A program made the translations under genes and the position numbers. Below, piece by piece: positions 10,451 to 47,176 of a stretch of DNA of 64,000 nucleotides; the stretch's first letter is position 1, and every line of letters starts with the position of its first letter. The notes beneath the pieces are model-generated. The model saw nothing but the letters and a program-made list of their open reading frames with translations. It ran no database searches and was not told the origin of the DNA. Location of the stretch: the NCBI RefSeq assembly GCF_947503705.1, contig NZ_CANNES010000003.1, positions 248,001-312,000 of the forward strand, given 5' to 3'. The DNA comes from an uncultured Tateyamaria sp. (lineage in GTDB: Bacteria; Pseudomonadota; Alphaproteobacteria; Rhodobacterales; Rhodobacteraceae).

Positions 10451-10676
10451 CCCTTTAGCCTGCACATTCCGGCGCGTGCCGCAACCAATTGGCGTGTCGA
10501 CGGGGCTCTTGTCACAGATTTTGCCTGTATTTCAGGCGGTTGGAAGTGGGTGACGTAGGGGCAAAGCGATTGCTGTTTATGGTTGCGTCCCCAGTTACCC
10601 CACGCGATTTGCGTGCCATCAGGTGGACAGTCGCGCCAATTGCCGCCACGCTGCGCATAACGAGGGAGGACACCGA

Positions 10677-11927
10677 ATGGACAAGAGCTTTATGGATCTC
10701 AGCTTTGGCATGCGCGCAGATAATGCGGAGCTTTTGGCGCGCGTGGCGACTATGATCCGCGACGATATCATGCCGCTTGAGGAAGAATATGCCGCCGAAG
10801 TCGGCAAGGGGGATCGCTGGCAATATACCGACCGGCAGACCGAGATTCTGGAAGGGCTGAAGTCCAAGGCCAAGGCTGAGGGATTGTGGAATTTCTGGCT
10901 GACCGACAGCGACAAGGGTTTTGGCTTGTCGACGGTCGAATATGCGCATTTTGCCGAAGAGATGGGCAAAACGCCTTTGGGGGCGGAGACCTTTAACTGT
11001 TCGGCCCCGGATACCGGAAATATGGAGGTGTTCGAGCGCTATGGCACCGACGCGATGAAGGCCGATTGGCTGGCGCCGTTGCTGGAGGGCAAAATCCGCT
11101 CGGCCTATTTGATGACGGAACCGGATGTTGCTTCCAGCGATGCGACAAACATTTCCATGTCGTGCGTTCGTGACGGCGAAGACTACGTCTTGAATGGTGA
11201 GAAATACTGGGCCTCGGGCGCGGGTGATCCGCGCTGCAAGGTCTATATCGTGATGGTCAAAACGGGCGGCGATGATCTGCCCAAGCACAAGCGGCAGTCA
11301 ATGATTGTGGTCCCTGCGGGGTCGCCCGGGATCGAAGTGCTGCGCCCCATGCTGGTTTACGGCCATGATGACGCGCCACACGGGCATATGCATATCCGGT
11401 TCACGGATGTACGGGTGCCTGCGGAGAATCTCCTCTTGGGGGAAGGCCGGGGGTTTGAGATTTCGCAAGGCCGTCTTGGACCTGGCCGCATTCACCATTG
11501 TATGCGCGCGATTGGGCAGGCGGAAGCGGCGTTGGAGCTGATGTGTCGGCGGTCGCTGTCCAAGGAAGCCTTTGGCAAGCCTCTGGCGCAGTTGGGTGCC
11601 AATTACGACATCATCGCGGAGTGCCGGATGGAGATCGAGATGGCGCGGCTGTTGTGCCTCAAGGCCGCATGGATGATGGATCAGGGCGATGCGCGGGCGG
11701 CGGCCCCCTGGATCAGCCAGATCAAGGTTGTTGCTCCGCGTGTGTCACTGAAAGTGATTGACGAAGCGGTGCAGATGCATGGTGGGCAGGGGATTTCCCA
11801 AGACACGCCGCTGGCCCATGCCTGGACCCATCAGCGAACCTTGCGCCTGGCCGATGGACCGGATGCGGTGCACCGGCGGCAAGTGGCGCGCGCCGAGTTG
11901 AAAAAGTACACTCAGCGACCGATGTAA
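10677..11927 (+). CDS. acyl-CoA dehydrogenase, ACAD10/11-like
   Basis: 416-residue FAD-dependent acyl-CoA dehydrogenase. An N-terminal helical domain is followed by the substrate/FAD signature (YLMTEPDVASSDATN, then GEKYWASGAGDPRCKVYIVM) and a C-terminal MHGGQGISQDTPLAHAW...RLADGPD block typical of ACAD10/11-type enzymes. The ATG at 10677 has a GGGAGGA Shine-Dalgarno 6 nt upstream, so longer frames are rejected. Divergent from the Anbu operon. The acyl chain cannot be read from sequence; relatives act on branched, long or 4-hydroxyacyl substrates. A five-hairpin array follows the stop codon directly. Confidence 0.9.
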   Translation: MDKSFMDLSFGMRADNAELLARVATMIRDDIMPLEEEYAAEVGKGDRWQYTDRQTEILEGLKSKAKAEGLWNFWLTDSDKGFGLSTVEYAHFAEEMGKTPLGAETFNCSAPDTGNMEVFERYGTDAMKADWLAPLLEGKIRSAYLMTEPDVASSDATNISMSCVRDGEDYVLNGEKYWASGAGDPRCKVYIVMVKTGGDDLPKHKRQSMIVVPAGSPGIEVLRPMLVYGHDDAPHGHMHIRFTDVRVPAENLLLGEGRGFEISQGRLGPGRIHHCMRAIGQAEAALELMCRRSLSKEAFGKPLAQLGANYDIIAECRMEIEMARLLCLKAAWMMDQGDARAAAPWISQIKVVAPRVSLKVIDEAVQMHGGQGISQDTPLAHAWTHQRTLRLADGPDAVHRRQVARAELKKYTQRPM

Positions 11928-11928
11928 C

Positions 11929-12043
11929 GGAAACCGACGCGGTTTCCGGCCGGTTTCTGACGCAGAAACCGGGCCCGGACCGATCAGTCGCGCGCTGATT
12001 GGAAAGCGCGTCGCTTTCCAGCCGTTTTTCGCGTCGAAAAACG
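11929..12043. repeat. array of five successive hairpins with ACG/CGT loops
   Basis: Five perfect inverted repeats lie almost end to end: 11929-11947 (arms GGAAACC/GGTTTCC, loop GACGC); 11952-11970 (GGTTTCTG/CAGAAACC, loop ACG); 11983-11999 (ATCAG/CTGAT, loop TCGCGCG); 12001-12019 (GGAAAGCG/CGCTTTCC, loop CGT); 12023-12043 (CGTTTTTCG/CGAAAAACG, loop CGT). A 10-bp palindrome CCGGGCCCGG at 11969-11978 overlaps the end of the second. The stems differ in sequence but share size and loop, and loops 1-2 (ACG) are the complement of loops 4-5 (CGT), so the whole array is roughly mirror-symmetric. It begins 1 nt after the acyl-CoA dehydrogenase stop. It may act as termination or mRNA-stability structure; function unknown. 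Confidence 0.85.
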
Positions 12044-12080
12044 CTTGCATCGGTCGCGTCAAGCGCGGCTTACTGTATCT

Positions 12081-13724
12081 ATGAAAGACCTTGCTGATCA
12101 TAGCATGCCGTTGCGCCCGCCGGGCGACGTGATGCGTCTTGCGCGCATGGGGGCCATGATGCCCACGCGGCTCAGTTTTCTGCGTGTCTTGCTGCGCAGG
12201 TTGTGCGCCGAGCGGGCGCAAATCACGCGTCCTGTCTGGTCCATGACCGCCGCGGGACATGGTCACGCGGTCTACAGCCTTGATCTTAGTGGGCATACCT
12301 ACTCGCTGGTGGCCATCTCGACCGACCTTCCTGCGGATCAGCGCAGCGACCGCGTGATCGCCACAGCCTGGGATGCGGCTTTTGTTCTATTTGATGGCGT
12401 TCCGAGCCCCGACGACATCGCCCGGATTGCCGAAAACGCACCCAGACAAGAGGCGGGTCGCTTCAGCCCTCGCGATCTGGTTCTCAGCCGTGCCAACAAA
12501 TCCGTGCGCATGTGGAATGCCACCGTCGACGCCTTGCGCGCAGGAGGCCAACCCGACGCGACCATGATCCGCGACATCGGCTATCTGATGCGCACGACGG
12601 CCGTTTACGGCAACGGCAAATTCGGCATCGCCGACCGCCACGTTATTGCCGGCCGCCCGGGCCTTGATGGCCCTTTTGCCGCCGAGATGCTGACCGTCTA
12701 CCTGATCCGTCATTTCACCCTCGATCTGGTACAGCATGTGGGGCAGGGGCGGCTTGAACCCGGGCTTGCCCGGCATTTGGGCATCGGGAATGCCACGGGT
12801 CTCGGGATGGCCCCGTTTCTGGTCAACCATCCGGTTTTGCTCAACAATTGGATGGTAGCGCGGGAGACCGCGTTGGGGCGCGTCAGATCCATCGAAAGGT
12901 TGACGGACCCAGAGCAGGCCCAATTCCACGCGCTCCATGTTCGGGCGGCCCGGCACCTGTCAGAGTGGCACGTGCCCGCACCCGATCACAATCAGGTCCT
13001 GCGCGACCTGGAAGCGGAGTGGCAGGCCTTTCAGCCCCATTTTGATGCGCTGGACGGACCGCACCCTTTGGAGAAATTGTGGCAGGCTGCCCAAGCCCAA
13101 TCGGTTCCCTGCCAGGAACTGGTCGTCGCACTGATGCTGGAGCCCTTTGGTGACCTGATCGACGGGTTGGCCGAGTGTATGGGCGACCCGTTTGGCCCGC
13201 TGGCTGCGCCGTTCTGCGGCACCGACGCCTTGCGTCAGGCGATTGAGGCAGATTGGGCATGGGCCTTGACGGCGGATTACACACAGGCGGACGCCTGCCG
13301 CCGCTTTTGGTATGTGAGCGCGGCCAAGCTTGAACCGCGTTTGGGTGACCGCTTCGCCGAGCCGGGGGCGGAGTTGGAAACGCCGCTGGATATCGCCCGC
13401 CGTGTGGCTGCCCTTTACCGCGATTTACCTGCAGGTGATGGCCCGGTGTCTGATTTTCTCGCGCAATATCCTGATCACGCCTTGGCCGCGTTCCGTGTCT
13501 GTGTGTTGTCGCGCTATCCCTATGCCGATATCCGCGACAATCTGATCGCGGCGACGTGCAAGCCCATCGACATGCTCCGCTGCAAGCTCAGCTTTTTCGG
13601 GGCCACGAAATTTGATCCCAAGTCCGACCTCTGGACCCGGATCACGTTGGCCCAAGGCGCGCCGCTGGGCGATGAACTGACCCCTGAAAATGATGACTGG
13701 TGGTTGCCGGTGCTGGCCCATTGA
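12081..13724 (+). CDS. uncharacterised 547-residue protein
   Basis: I do not recognise this family. The start at 12081 (MKDLADHSMPLRPPGD) is chosen because an earlier possible TTG start lies directly beside the last hairpin of the upstream array. The protein is soluble, without signal peptide or membrane segments. Notable segments: LVLSRANKSVRMWNATVDAL, DIGYLMRTTAVYGNGKFGIADR, and RHLGIGNATGLGMAPFLVNHP. The last two look like conserved functional loops (G-N-G-K-F-G; G-I-G-N-A-T-G-L-G). The next gene starts at its stop codon (TTGA overlap), so the two are translationally coupled. It follows an acyl-CoA dehydrogenase but no functional link is proven. Confidence 0.8.
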   Translation: MKDLADHSMPLRPPGDVMRLARMGAMMPTRLSFLRVLLRRLCAERAQITRPVWSMTAAGHGHAVYSLDLSGHTYSLVAISTDLPADQRSDRVIATAWDAAFVLFDGVPSPDDIARIAENAPRQEAGRFSPRDLVLSRANKSVRMWNATVDALRAGGQPDATMIRDIGYLMRTTAVYGNGKFGIADRHVIAGRPGLDGPFAAEMLTVYLIRHFTLDLVQHVGQGRLEPGLARHLGIGNATGLGMAPFLVNHPVLLNNWMVARETALGRVRSIERLTDPEQAQFHALHVRAARHLSEWHVPAPDHNQVLRDLEAEWQAFQPHFDALDGPHPLEKLWQAAQAQSVPCQELVVALMLEPFGDLIDGLAECMGDPFGPLAAPFCGTDALRQAIEADWAWALTADYTQADACRRFWYVSAAKLEPRLGDRFAEPGAELETPLDIARRVAALYRDLPAGDGPVSDFLAQYPDHALAAFRVCVLSRYPYADIRDNLIAATCKPIDMLRCKLSFFGATKFDPKSDLWTRITLAQGAPLGDELTPENDDWWLPVLAH

Positions 13725-14221
13725 CCCATTCCTGGACCGAAGTGCAGGCGTTGGGCGTCAAGGCGGCAAGCGGTGCGGGTGTCCCTCCAGCACAGGCTTT
13801 GGCCTTTGGGGCGATGGTGGCGCGGCACCTCGCGGACGGGGGGGCAGAGACCCCGATTGCAGCCGCATTGCGCGCCCCTGACAGCATTGTTGCGCTGGCA
13901 TTGCGAGTTGAAAAGGTGATTGAAGGGGCGTCAATGAATGCAAGTGCGGTGACTGTACGCGAGGCAGATGCTGGCGCGCGCGCCTTGCTGTTCAGCTGGC
14001 TCTCGGGACTGCCTTGTCAGACCGCTTTGACGCTGGCCGATGACACAATCATCGCCTCCCTGAACCTGGCGGCACCGAGTGATCGGTCCCGCCCGGATCG
14101 CGTGCCGCTTGGCCCGGAATTGCAGGAACAGATGCAGGAACTTGCCGCCAAAACCTATGTGCCTGACAGCGATGCATCGCGCAGTGCGGGCGCGGGTGCC
14201 GGGTTGATGGACCTCGACTGA
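13721..14221 (+). CDS. DUF3726-like protein
   Basis: 166-residue protein whose N-terminus (HSWTEVQALGVKAASGAGVPPAQA) resembles the DUF3726 pattern of an LNEVEAL-like stretch followed by KAARGAG, a family I know mainly from Rhodobacteraceae. The TTG at 13721 overlaps the preceding stop (TTGA); a GTG at 13700 is the alternative start. The C-terminal half (about residues 85-140) is beta/alpha-like with no motif I know. Clearly the partner of the 547-residue gene. Function unknown; the family call is tentative. Confidence 0.6.
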   Translation: MTHSWTEVQALGVKAASGAGVPPAQALAFGAMVARHLADGGAETPIAAALRAPDSIVALALRVEKVIEGASMNASAVTVREADAGARALLFSWLSGLPCQTALTLADDTIIASLNLAAPSDRSRPDRVPLGPELQEQMQELAAKTYVPDSDASRSAGAGAGLMDLD

Positions 14222-47127: not shown

Positions 47128-47149
47128 GGATTGGCACGCAAAATTCGGA

Positions 47150-47176
47150 AAAACCCGCCATATCGGCGGGTTTTTT
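47150..47176 (+). terminator. Rho-independent terminator after ftsH
   Basis: AAACCCGCC/GGCGGGTTT stem with loop ATATC and a run of six T. Confidence 0.88.

Follow-up and report, generated by a model that had tools for sequence, protein, structure and literature searches.

Dispersed REP-like palindromic arrays with polar triloops at gene ends in Rhodobacteraceae

Within a 64,000-nucleotide stretch of DNA from an uncultured Tateyamaria sp. (the whole stretch is called the window here), we found that a hairpin array lying directly behind an acyl-CoA dehydrogenase gene belongs to a REP-like palindromic repeat that is dispersed in Rhodobacteraceae genomes, and represents a single copy of it. The array spans 11928-12043 and consists of four perfect hairpins of 9-10 bp with the loops ACG, ACG, CGT, and CGT. 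The first-pass annotation had described five perfect hairpins; four of them were borne out, while the middle one proved to be weak and specific to this locus. Its description of an array that starts directly after a stop codon, is not a simple tandem repeat, and has mirror-symmetric loops agrees with our results. The features are as follows.

10623 to 11927, + strand: acyl-CoA dehydrogenase gene, TAA stop at 11925-11927 directly adjoining the array
11915 to 11924, + strand: left arm of a 10-bp outer stem, within the last codons, locus-specific, pairs with 12048-12057
11928 to 11948, + strand: hairpin 1 (A-type, GGAAACC arm), perfect, 9 bp, loop ACG
11950 to 11972, + strand: hairpin 2 (B-type), perfect, 10 bp, loop ACG
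11973 to 11999, + strand: 27-nt spacer holding the weak, locus-specific central hairpin (11983-11999)
12000 to 12020, + strand: hairpin 4 (A-type), perfect, 9 bp, loop CGT
12023 to 12043, + strand: hairpin 5 (B-type), perfect, 9 bp, loop CGT
12044 to 12048, + strand: CTTGC right behind the last hairpin, spotted by eye
12048 to 12057, + strand: right arm of the 10-bp outer stem, locus-specific, pairs with 11915-11924
12084 to 13724, + strand: downstream gene, 546 aa from its ATG, without a Pfam match

The 146-nt stretch with the array had folding z-scores of -7.10 (+ strand) and -5.79 (- strand), and 0 of 200 shuffles folded as well on either strand. A scan of the 64-kb window with loops of 3-5 nt gave no perfect triloop stems of at least 9 bp besides the four array hairpins. 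The central hairpin has Watson-Crick pairs only in ATCAG/CTGAT (11983-11987 with 11995-11999, loop of 7 nt) and reaches 9 bp in the + strand fold once G.U pairs are allowed. It was rejected as a general part of the arrays: of 34 arrays with four or five hairpins, 32 had a spacer of foldable length, and in these the mean z was -0.27 (+) and -0.46 (-); the orthologues L211, L229, and L237 alone had a z lower than -2 for both strands. The outer closing stem was rejected in the same way, with a mean longest helix of 3.81 versus 3.71 in shuffled flanks over 108 arrays and a flanking helix of at least 7 bp in 4 of the 108.

Forty nucleotides separate the last hairpin from the ATG of the downstream gene, whose 546-aa product was matched in 20/20 genus genomes, in two of them only by a 48-51% relative. 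A 173-aa ORF (13700-14221) without a Pfam match lies 3' of this gene. By eye, most orthologous loci have CTTGC at a similar spacing to the gene that follows, whether the array is present or absent, and we would guess that it is a -35 element of the downstream gene. Elsewhere in the window, a classical bidirectional terminator-like hairpin, AAAAACCCGCC...GGCGGGTTTTT, was seen at 47149-47175; hairpins of the ordinary terminator-like sort are thus present alongside the arrays.

The source genome comprises 31 contigs totalling 4.43 Mb, and a DNA search of it with the array stretch returned dispersed matches, two of them about 115 nt long. For the two-hairpin unit we built a covariance model, R1, from 20 units, with row L007 excluded from the alignment; it found at least 46 units in the source genome at E < 1e-7 among the best 150 of 2919 candidates, which gave 34 loci after merging by eye. 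The common unit runs from an A hairpin (GGAAACC arm) over a GC/GGC-like linker to a B hairpin (GTTTTCC arm), the hairpin centres being 23-25 nt apart. Of 33 source-genome arrays measured, 12 have four hairpins like the window array (quads) and 21 have two. The pattern GGAAACC-G-NNN-C-GGTTTCC occurs at 16 sites of the source genome (15 exact, one with one mismatch), and all are within R1 units, so that solitary copies can be rejected for this commonest A-type stem.

In the genus, which is Tateyamaria judging by the closest named relatives, R1 matched at least 13 of 20 genomes, the source included, and the other seven were without a unit (E 0.01, best 150 candidates per genome). In the family, at least 39 of 295 genomes, about one per genus, had matches at 1e-5 (best 21 candidates per genome), and in the class at least one of 385, the source genome itself (best 16 candidates per genome); these two surveys had stricter filters and low sensitivity, and weak or few-copy repeats may be missed. 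Doubtful family matches include one inside a gene, one between divergent genes, and six that lack a perfect triloop pair. Quads built in the same way are present in two other genera (L122, ACG ACG CGT CGT; L124, ACG ACG CGT GGT), and the remaining other-genus matches are mostly two-hairpin arrays with freer loops. The annotation had proposed a search for similar arrays in Rhodobacteraceae and had named the lack of such arrays and of compensatory changes as the sign of a chance cluster; the outcome was against chance, which is ruled out by the fold z-scores, the dispersed genome copies, and the R1 matches within the genus.

For comparison across species, we combined the source genome with G002, G003, G004, G005, and G007, taking part of the matches listed for the latter (80 loci). 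Of 114 loci tried (34 from the source, 80 from the others), 108 were kept, and L090, L177, L191, L193, L194, and L205 were dropped.

The arrays usually lie at the ends of genes. By a codon-usage script, the 34 source loci comprise 17 convergent, 15 tandem, and 0 divergent gaps, one locus overlapping a called ORF, and one at a contig end, and a second version of the script gave 16 convergent and 17 tandem. Over the six species, rough gene calls placed 46 of the 108 arrays between convergent genes, 62 between tandem genes, and none between divergent genes, with a facing stop codon at -11 to 18 nt from the array in 96. Counting one array per ortholog group (n = 46), 20 are convergent and 26 tandem, and 44 have a facing stop no more than 18 nt away. 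Control gaps of at least 40 nt at the array loci were 31 tandem, 22 divergent, and 4 convergent (n = 57, rough gene calls), and gaps of this size in the window were 19 tandem, 7 convergent, and 6 divergent (n = 32). The 28 loci in other genera were 16 tandem, 11 convergent, and 1 divergent.

Most arrays also occupy places shared with other species. With a rule of 900 aligned nt, 93 of the 108 arrays fall into 31 ortholog groups with cross-species flank alignment, including 24 of 33 source arrays; in a few groups the alignment covered a single side. Through a neighbouring protein, and so regardless of hairpins, we retrieved four loci. The window locus was compared in 18 genomes, two genus genomes being excluded as too distant: three have whole quads (G000, G005, and G004 with one weak stem), six have a unit, a decayed array, or a single hairpin (G002, G003, G007, G008, G015, G016), and nine have no recognised array. 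Unit 2 of this locus, aligned over eight genomes, carries double-sided changes at three stem positions; its inner pairs are broken in G004, G008, and G015, and its foot pairs are mismatched in four genomes.

At the hydantoinase-like locus, seven of 20 genomes have a perfect pair of hairpins, two have apparent remnants (G008, G018), and 11 have none. By eye, seven of the 11 array-less species show a tight GTGA stop/start junction, and five of the seven carriers have the array and its flanks between two copies of GTGA. Across the seven intact species, the stems of hairpin 1 do not vary. Hairpin 2 occurs with three distinct inner stems, each of them perfect, and shows double-sided changes at 5/9 pairs and zero broken (the two decayed remnants excluded).

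The 3' end of ntrX holds an intact array in two of 20 genomes, a decayed array in three, an unrelated hairpin in ten, and no strong hairpin in five; 3-5 T follow four of the ten unrelated hairpins. A loopless palindrome, TCTGTCCCCGCGGGGACAGA, is found at this end in six genus genomes (L248, L250, L251, L257, L258, L260), and in L252 further from the ntrX stop; perhaps it is another gene-end repeat family. In L253, L255, L256, and L259, a single GTCCCA-type hairpin is followed by 3-5 T and is a possible intrinsic terminator. The left gene of L055 has whole or partial arrays in five of 20 genomes (G000, G002, G004, G005, G007), other 8-bp hairpins in six, and weak or no hairpins in nine. At another orthologous 3' end, L287, L288, L292, and L301 carry a TTTTGGCCnnnGGCCAAAA hairpin followed by a GGCGCCC-like sequence, and L289 and L297 its variant TTTTGAGC, a possible third hairpin type. 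In a single-protein genus tree, the high-copy genomes do not all share one clade (3 changes), so that gain and loss of arrays are both likely.

Covariation of the stems, which had been suggested as a check, is present both at hydantoinase hairpin 2 and among the 20 units of the model, chosen as good hairpins, where 13 of 18 pairs are altered on both sides and 98.1% of cells are paired. Between the orthologous arrays L199 and L209, whose flanks are about 91% similar, a block of stem pairs in one hairpin is swapped on both arms. Among hairpins preselected at 7 or more of 9 paired positions, mismatches amount to 9 G.U, 9 A.C, and 10 others per 2304 cells. A sense-strand G.U bias was thus rejected; the equal counts give no sign of selection on one RNA strand and suggest a constraint on both strands or on the DNA itself.

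The triloops have a polarity. In the 32 quads, loops of the first half are RCR in 57/64 and YGY in 0/64, and loops of the second half are YGY in 52/64 and RCR in 0/64; 19 of the 128 are neither, and no reversal occurs. Taking one quad per ortholog group (n = 18), we counted RCR in 35/36 first-half and YGY in 31/36 second-half loops, again with zero reversals. The 74 two-hairpin arrays follow a weaker trend (22 RCR-YGY, 17 RCR-other, 14 other-YGY), the rest being 7 YGY-YGY, 6 RCR-RCR, 4 other-other, 3 YGY-other, and 1 other-RCR. The polarity stays symmetric even between tandem genes. A-rich and T-rich arms alternate in 22 of 32 quads, and avoidance of mispairing between neighbouring arms was not seen over 146 adjacent pairs (3.1 matches to the 5' arm of the following hairpin versus 2.6 to its 3' arm). 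The proposal that loops could kiss across the array finds support at the level of the RCR and YGY classes, but exact complementarity exceeds shuffles for loops 2-3 only (uncorrected p 0.01 in one of five tests), as compared to p 0.27 for loops 1-4, 0.65 for 1-3, 0.12 for 2-4, and 1.0 for two-hairpin arrays; these tests are limited to arrays with RCR and YGY at the respective two places.

Position makes the suggested mRNA stability cassette or terminator plausible, but a U-tract behind the complete array, defined as 5 or more T among 6 positions inside the next 10 nt, was found in 0/108 cases forward and 0/46 on the reverse strand of convergent loci. Inside the arrays, TTTT within 9 nt after a stem follows 49 of 288 hairpins on one strand and 56 on the other, about one in six, and TTTTT follows 4 and 2. 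A terminator scan flags hairpin 4 of the window array, its T run being formed by the arm of hairpin 5; the scan gave 2 sites in 2 kb versus 1.7 in shuffles. Against Rfam 15, the window gave 0 matches at gathering score and 10 array loci gave 0 at E 1, and a known RNA family was rejected on this basis. The Y1/REP transposase family PF01797 had 0 matches in the source genome at E 1, for which reason a RAYT-driven REP was rejected. Over the genus it passed the cut-off in three of 20 genomes, the many-unit carriers G004 and G015 and the unit-less G006, and was absent from the array-bearing G003, G005, and G007. REPs of the GTAG and CGTC super-families have a conserved, unpaired tetranucleotide at one foot of the stem; at the edges of the 108 arrays we found no such conserved tetranucleotide, a bias to G alone being visible (best column G in 63/108).

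The structure, family, position, orthologous conservation, and double-sided stem changes of the arrays are established here; that they are transcribed, that they act at mRNA ends, and by what mechanism, we infer. We give about an even chance to the reading that the array is a bidirectional gene-3'-end element, serving as an exonuclease barrier and/or a termination aid; the likelihoods attached to this and the three following readings may overlap. A role at gene ends in both directions is favoured because of the position, the strand symmetry, and the other hairpins that replace arrays. A transcript from either side would meet stable hairpins a few nt past the stop codon, and by halting 3'-5' exonucleases these would fix where the mRNA ends; Rho-dependent or other termination probably acts alongside, and the array would insulate the neighbouring gene. 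Insertion or copying probably dispersed the arrays, and each locus afterwards retained, altered, or lost its own. The lack of a U-tract behind the array counts against a plain intrinsic terminator, a less fitting role to which the T runs inside arrays still leave some room. In E. coli, REPs and Rho-dependent 3' ends offer the precedent of an exonuclease barrier after Rho-type termination, and by analogy such a barrier would fit the arrays better. Against a 3'-end role stand the missing U-tract, the equal G.U and A.C counts, the symmetric polarity even between tandem genes, for which a single transcript ought to be enough, the 7/20 unit-less genomes, the decayed arrays, and the 5/20 ntrX ends that show no strong hairpin.

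It is possible, though we doubt it, that the array is a selfish, non-autonomous REP/MITE-like repeat moved by an unknown enzyme, its stop-codon sites being merely tolerated. Selfish repeats likewise settle at 3' ends, where they are least harmful. The two-hairpin source arrays C1:753732, C3:65988, and C18:17702 differ from one another by a loop base and, by eye, lie in unlike flanks; the GTGA junctions of the hydantoinase-like gene and the patchy presence within genus and family point the same way. However, most arrays stand at a place common to another species, many are perfect despite sequence change, the source genome is without a Y1_Tnp match, and the complete absence from divergent gaps seems stricter than tolerance alone needs.

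A DNA-level site is unlikely. Here extruded cruciforms or single-strand hairpins would expose triloops to be read by a nucleoid protein, gyrase, or a recombinase, and the palindromes would stay perfect through template switching or conversion between copies. Near-perfect stems with G.U not above A.C, stem blocks swapped on both arms between orthologues (L199 versus L209, hydantoinase hairpin 2), and a loop polarity symmetric on both strands are consistent with this; but closeness to stop codons points to transcripts, an RNA role on both strands would likewise exclude G.U, and no binding protein was identified. Kissing of RCR and YGY loops into a compact 3'-end RNA fold is very improbable, since the unreversed polarity of the quads is offset by the weakness of a three-base contact, exact complementarity at loops 2-3 only, and the RCR-RCR and YGY-YGY arrays among those with two hairpins.

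We tentatively put forward a further and rather doubtful proposal, namely that the arrays form a strand-symmetric gene-end class in which hairpins are read by their orientation, the triloop (RCR versus YGY) is the sole mark of it, and stems pass between copies as entire modules that stay perfect; if true, a dedicated Rhodobacteraceae factor would recognise the loops of gene-end hairpins on either strand. As candidate 3'-end elements the arrays of this family can be counted, and orthologous sites with and without an array occur naturally, which makes the old question of selfish versus mRNA-end function directly testable for REP-like palindromes. Among the literature matches listed, which cover few subscription journals, we found no description of the repeat, and as far as searched, neither loop polarity nor stem swapping at one locus without imperfect intermediates is described there; both need a mechanism.

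Like intrinsic bidirectional terminators, the arrays place strong hairpins between convergent genes or right behind a stop, a likeness to which the internal runs of four T in some arrays may add; they differ in having two or four hairpins instead of one, a shared repeat sequence, and no U-tract behind the array. MITEs are small, non-coding, dispersed elements, and the arrays resemble them in these features and in having copies in unlike flanks, but beyond the hairpins we found no terminal inverted repeat common to them, nor a matching transposase. A possible target duplication, GTGA, is seen at one locus (the five hydantoinase-like carriers) and is confounded by stop and start codons.

The REPs described with RepRanger are extragenic, multicopy stem-loops with a consensus and without a T-rich tail (Murashko et al. 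2025, PMC12306157), a paper whose main text does not contain the words Rhodobacter or Roseobacter by word count. The arrays share these properties, the missing T-rich tail included, and differ by their loop polarity, which the accessible text of that paper does not describe. REP/BIME palindromes, according to the available part of Di Nocera et al. (2013, PMC3733652), are short and multicopy, often form dimers of opposite orientation, lie mostly downstream of genes between co-directional or convergent ORFs, and belong to the GTAG and CGTC super-families, the frequency of their G.T pairs being taken as a sign of transcription. Compared with that description, the arrays are likewise short multicopy palindromes, non-divergent in 108/108 cases by rough gene calls; they differ in their four-hairpin form with fixed loop polarity, in the near absence of G.T pairs, and in having no fixed edge tetranucleotide, orientation being carried by the triloops. 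They also differ from a REPtron (RAYT plus REP), in which the repeat flanks a RAYT/Y1 transposase, as no Y1 transposase was found in the source genome. By its presumed workings and its placement, the array repeat is of the REP-like kind as this is portrayed in those parts of the literature, yet without tag and RAYT; since the tests for these two failed, we class it as a variant of the REP-like kind.
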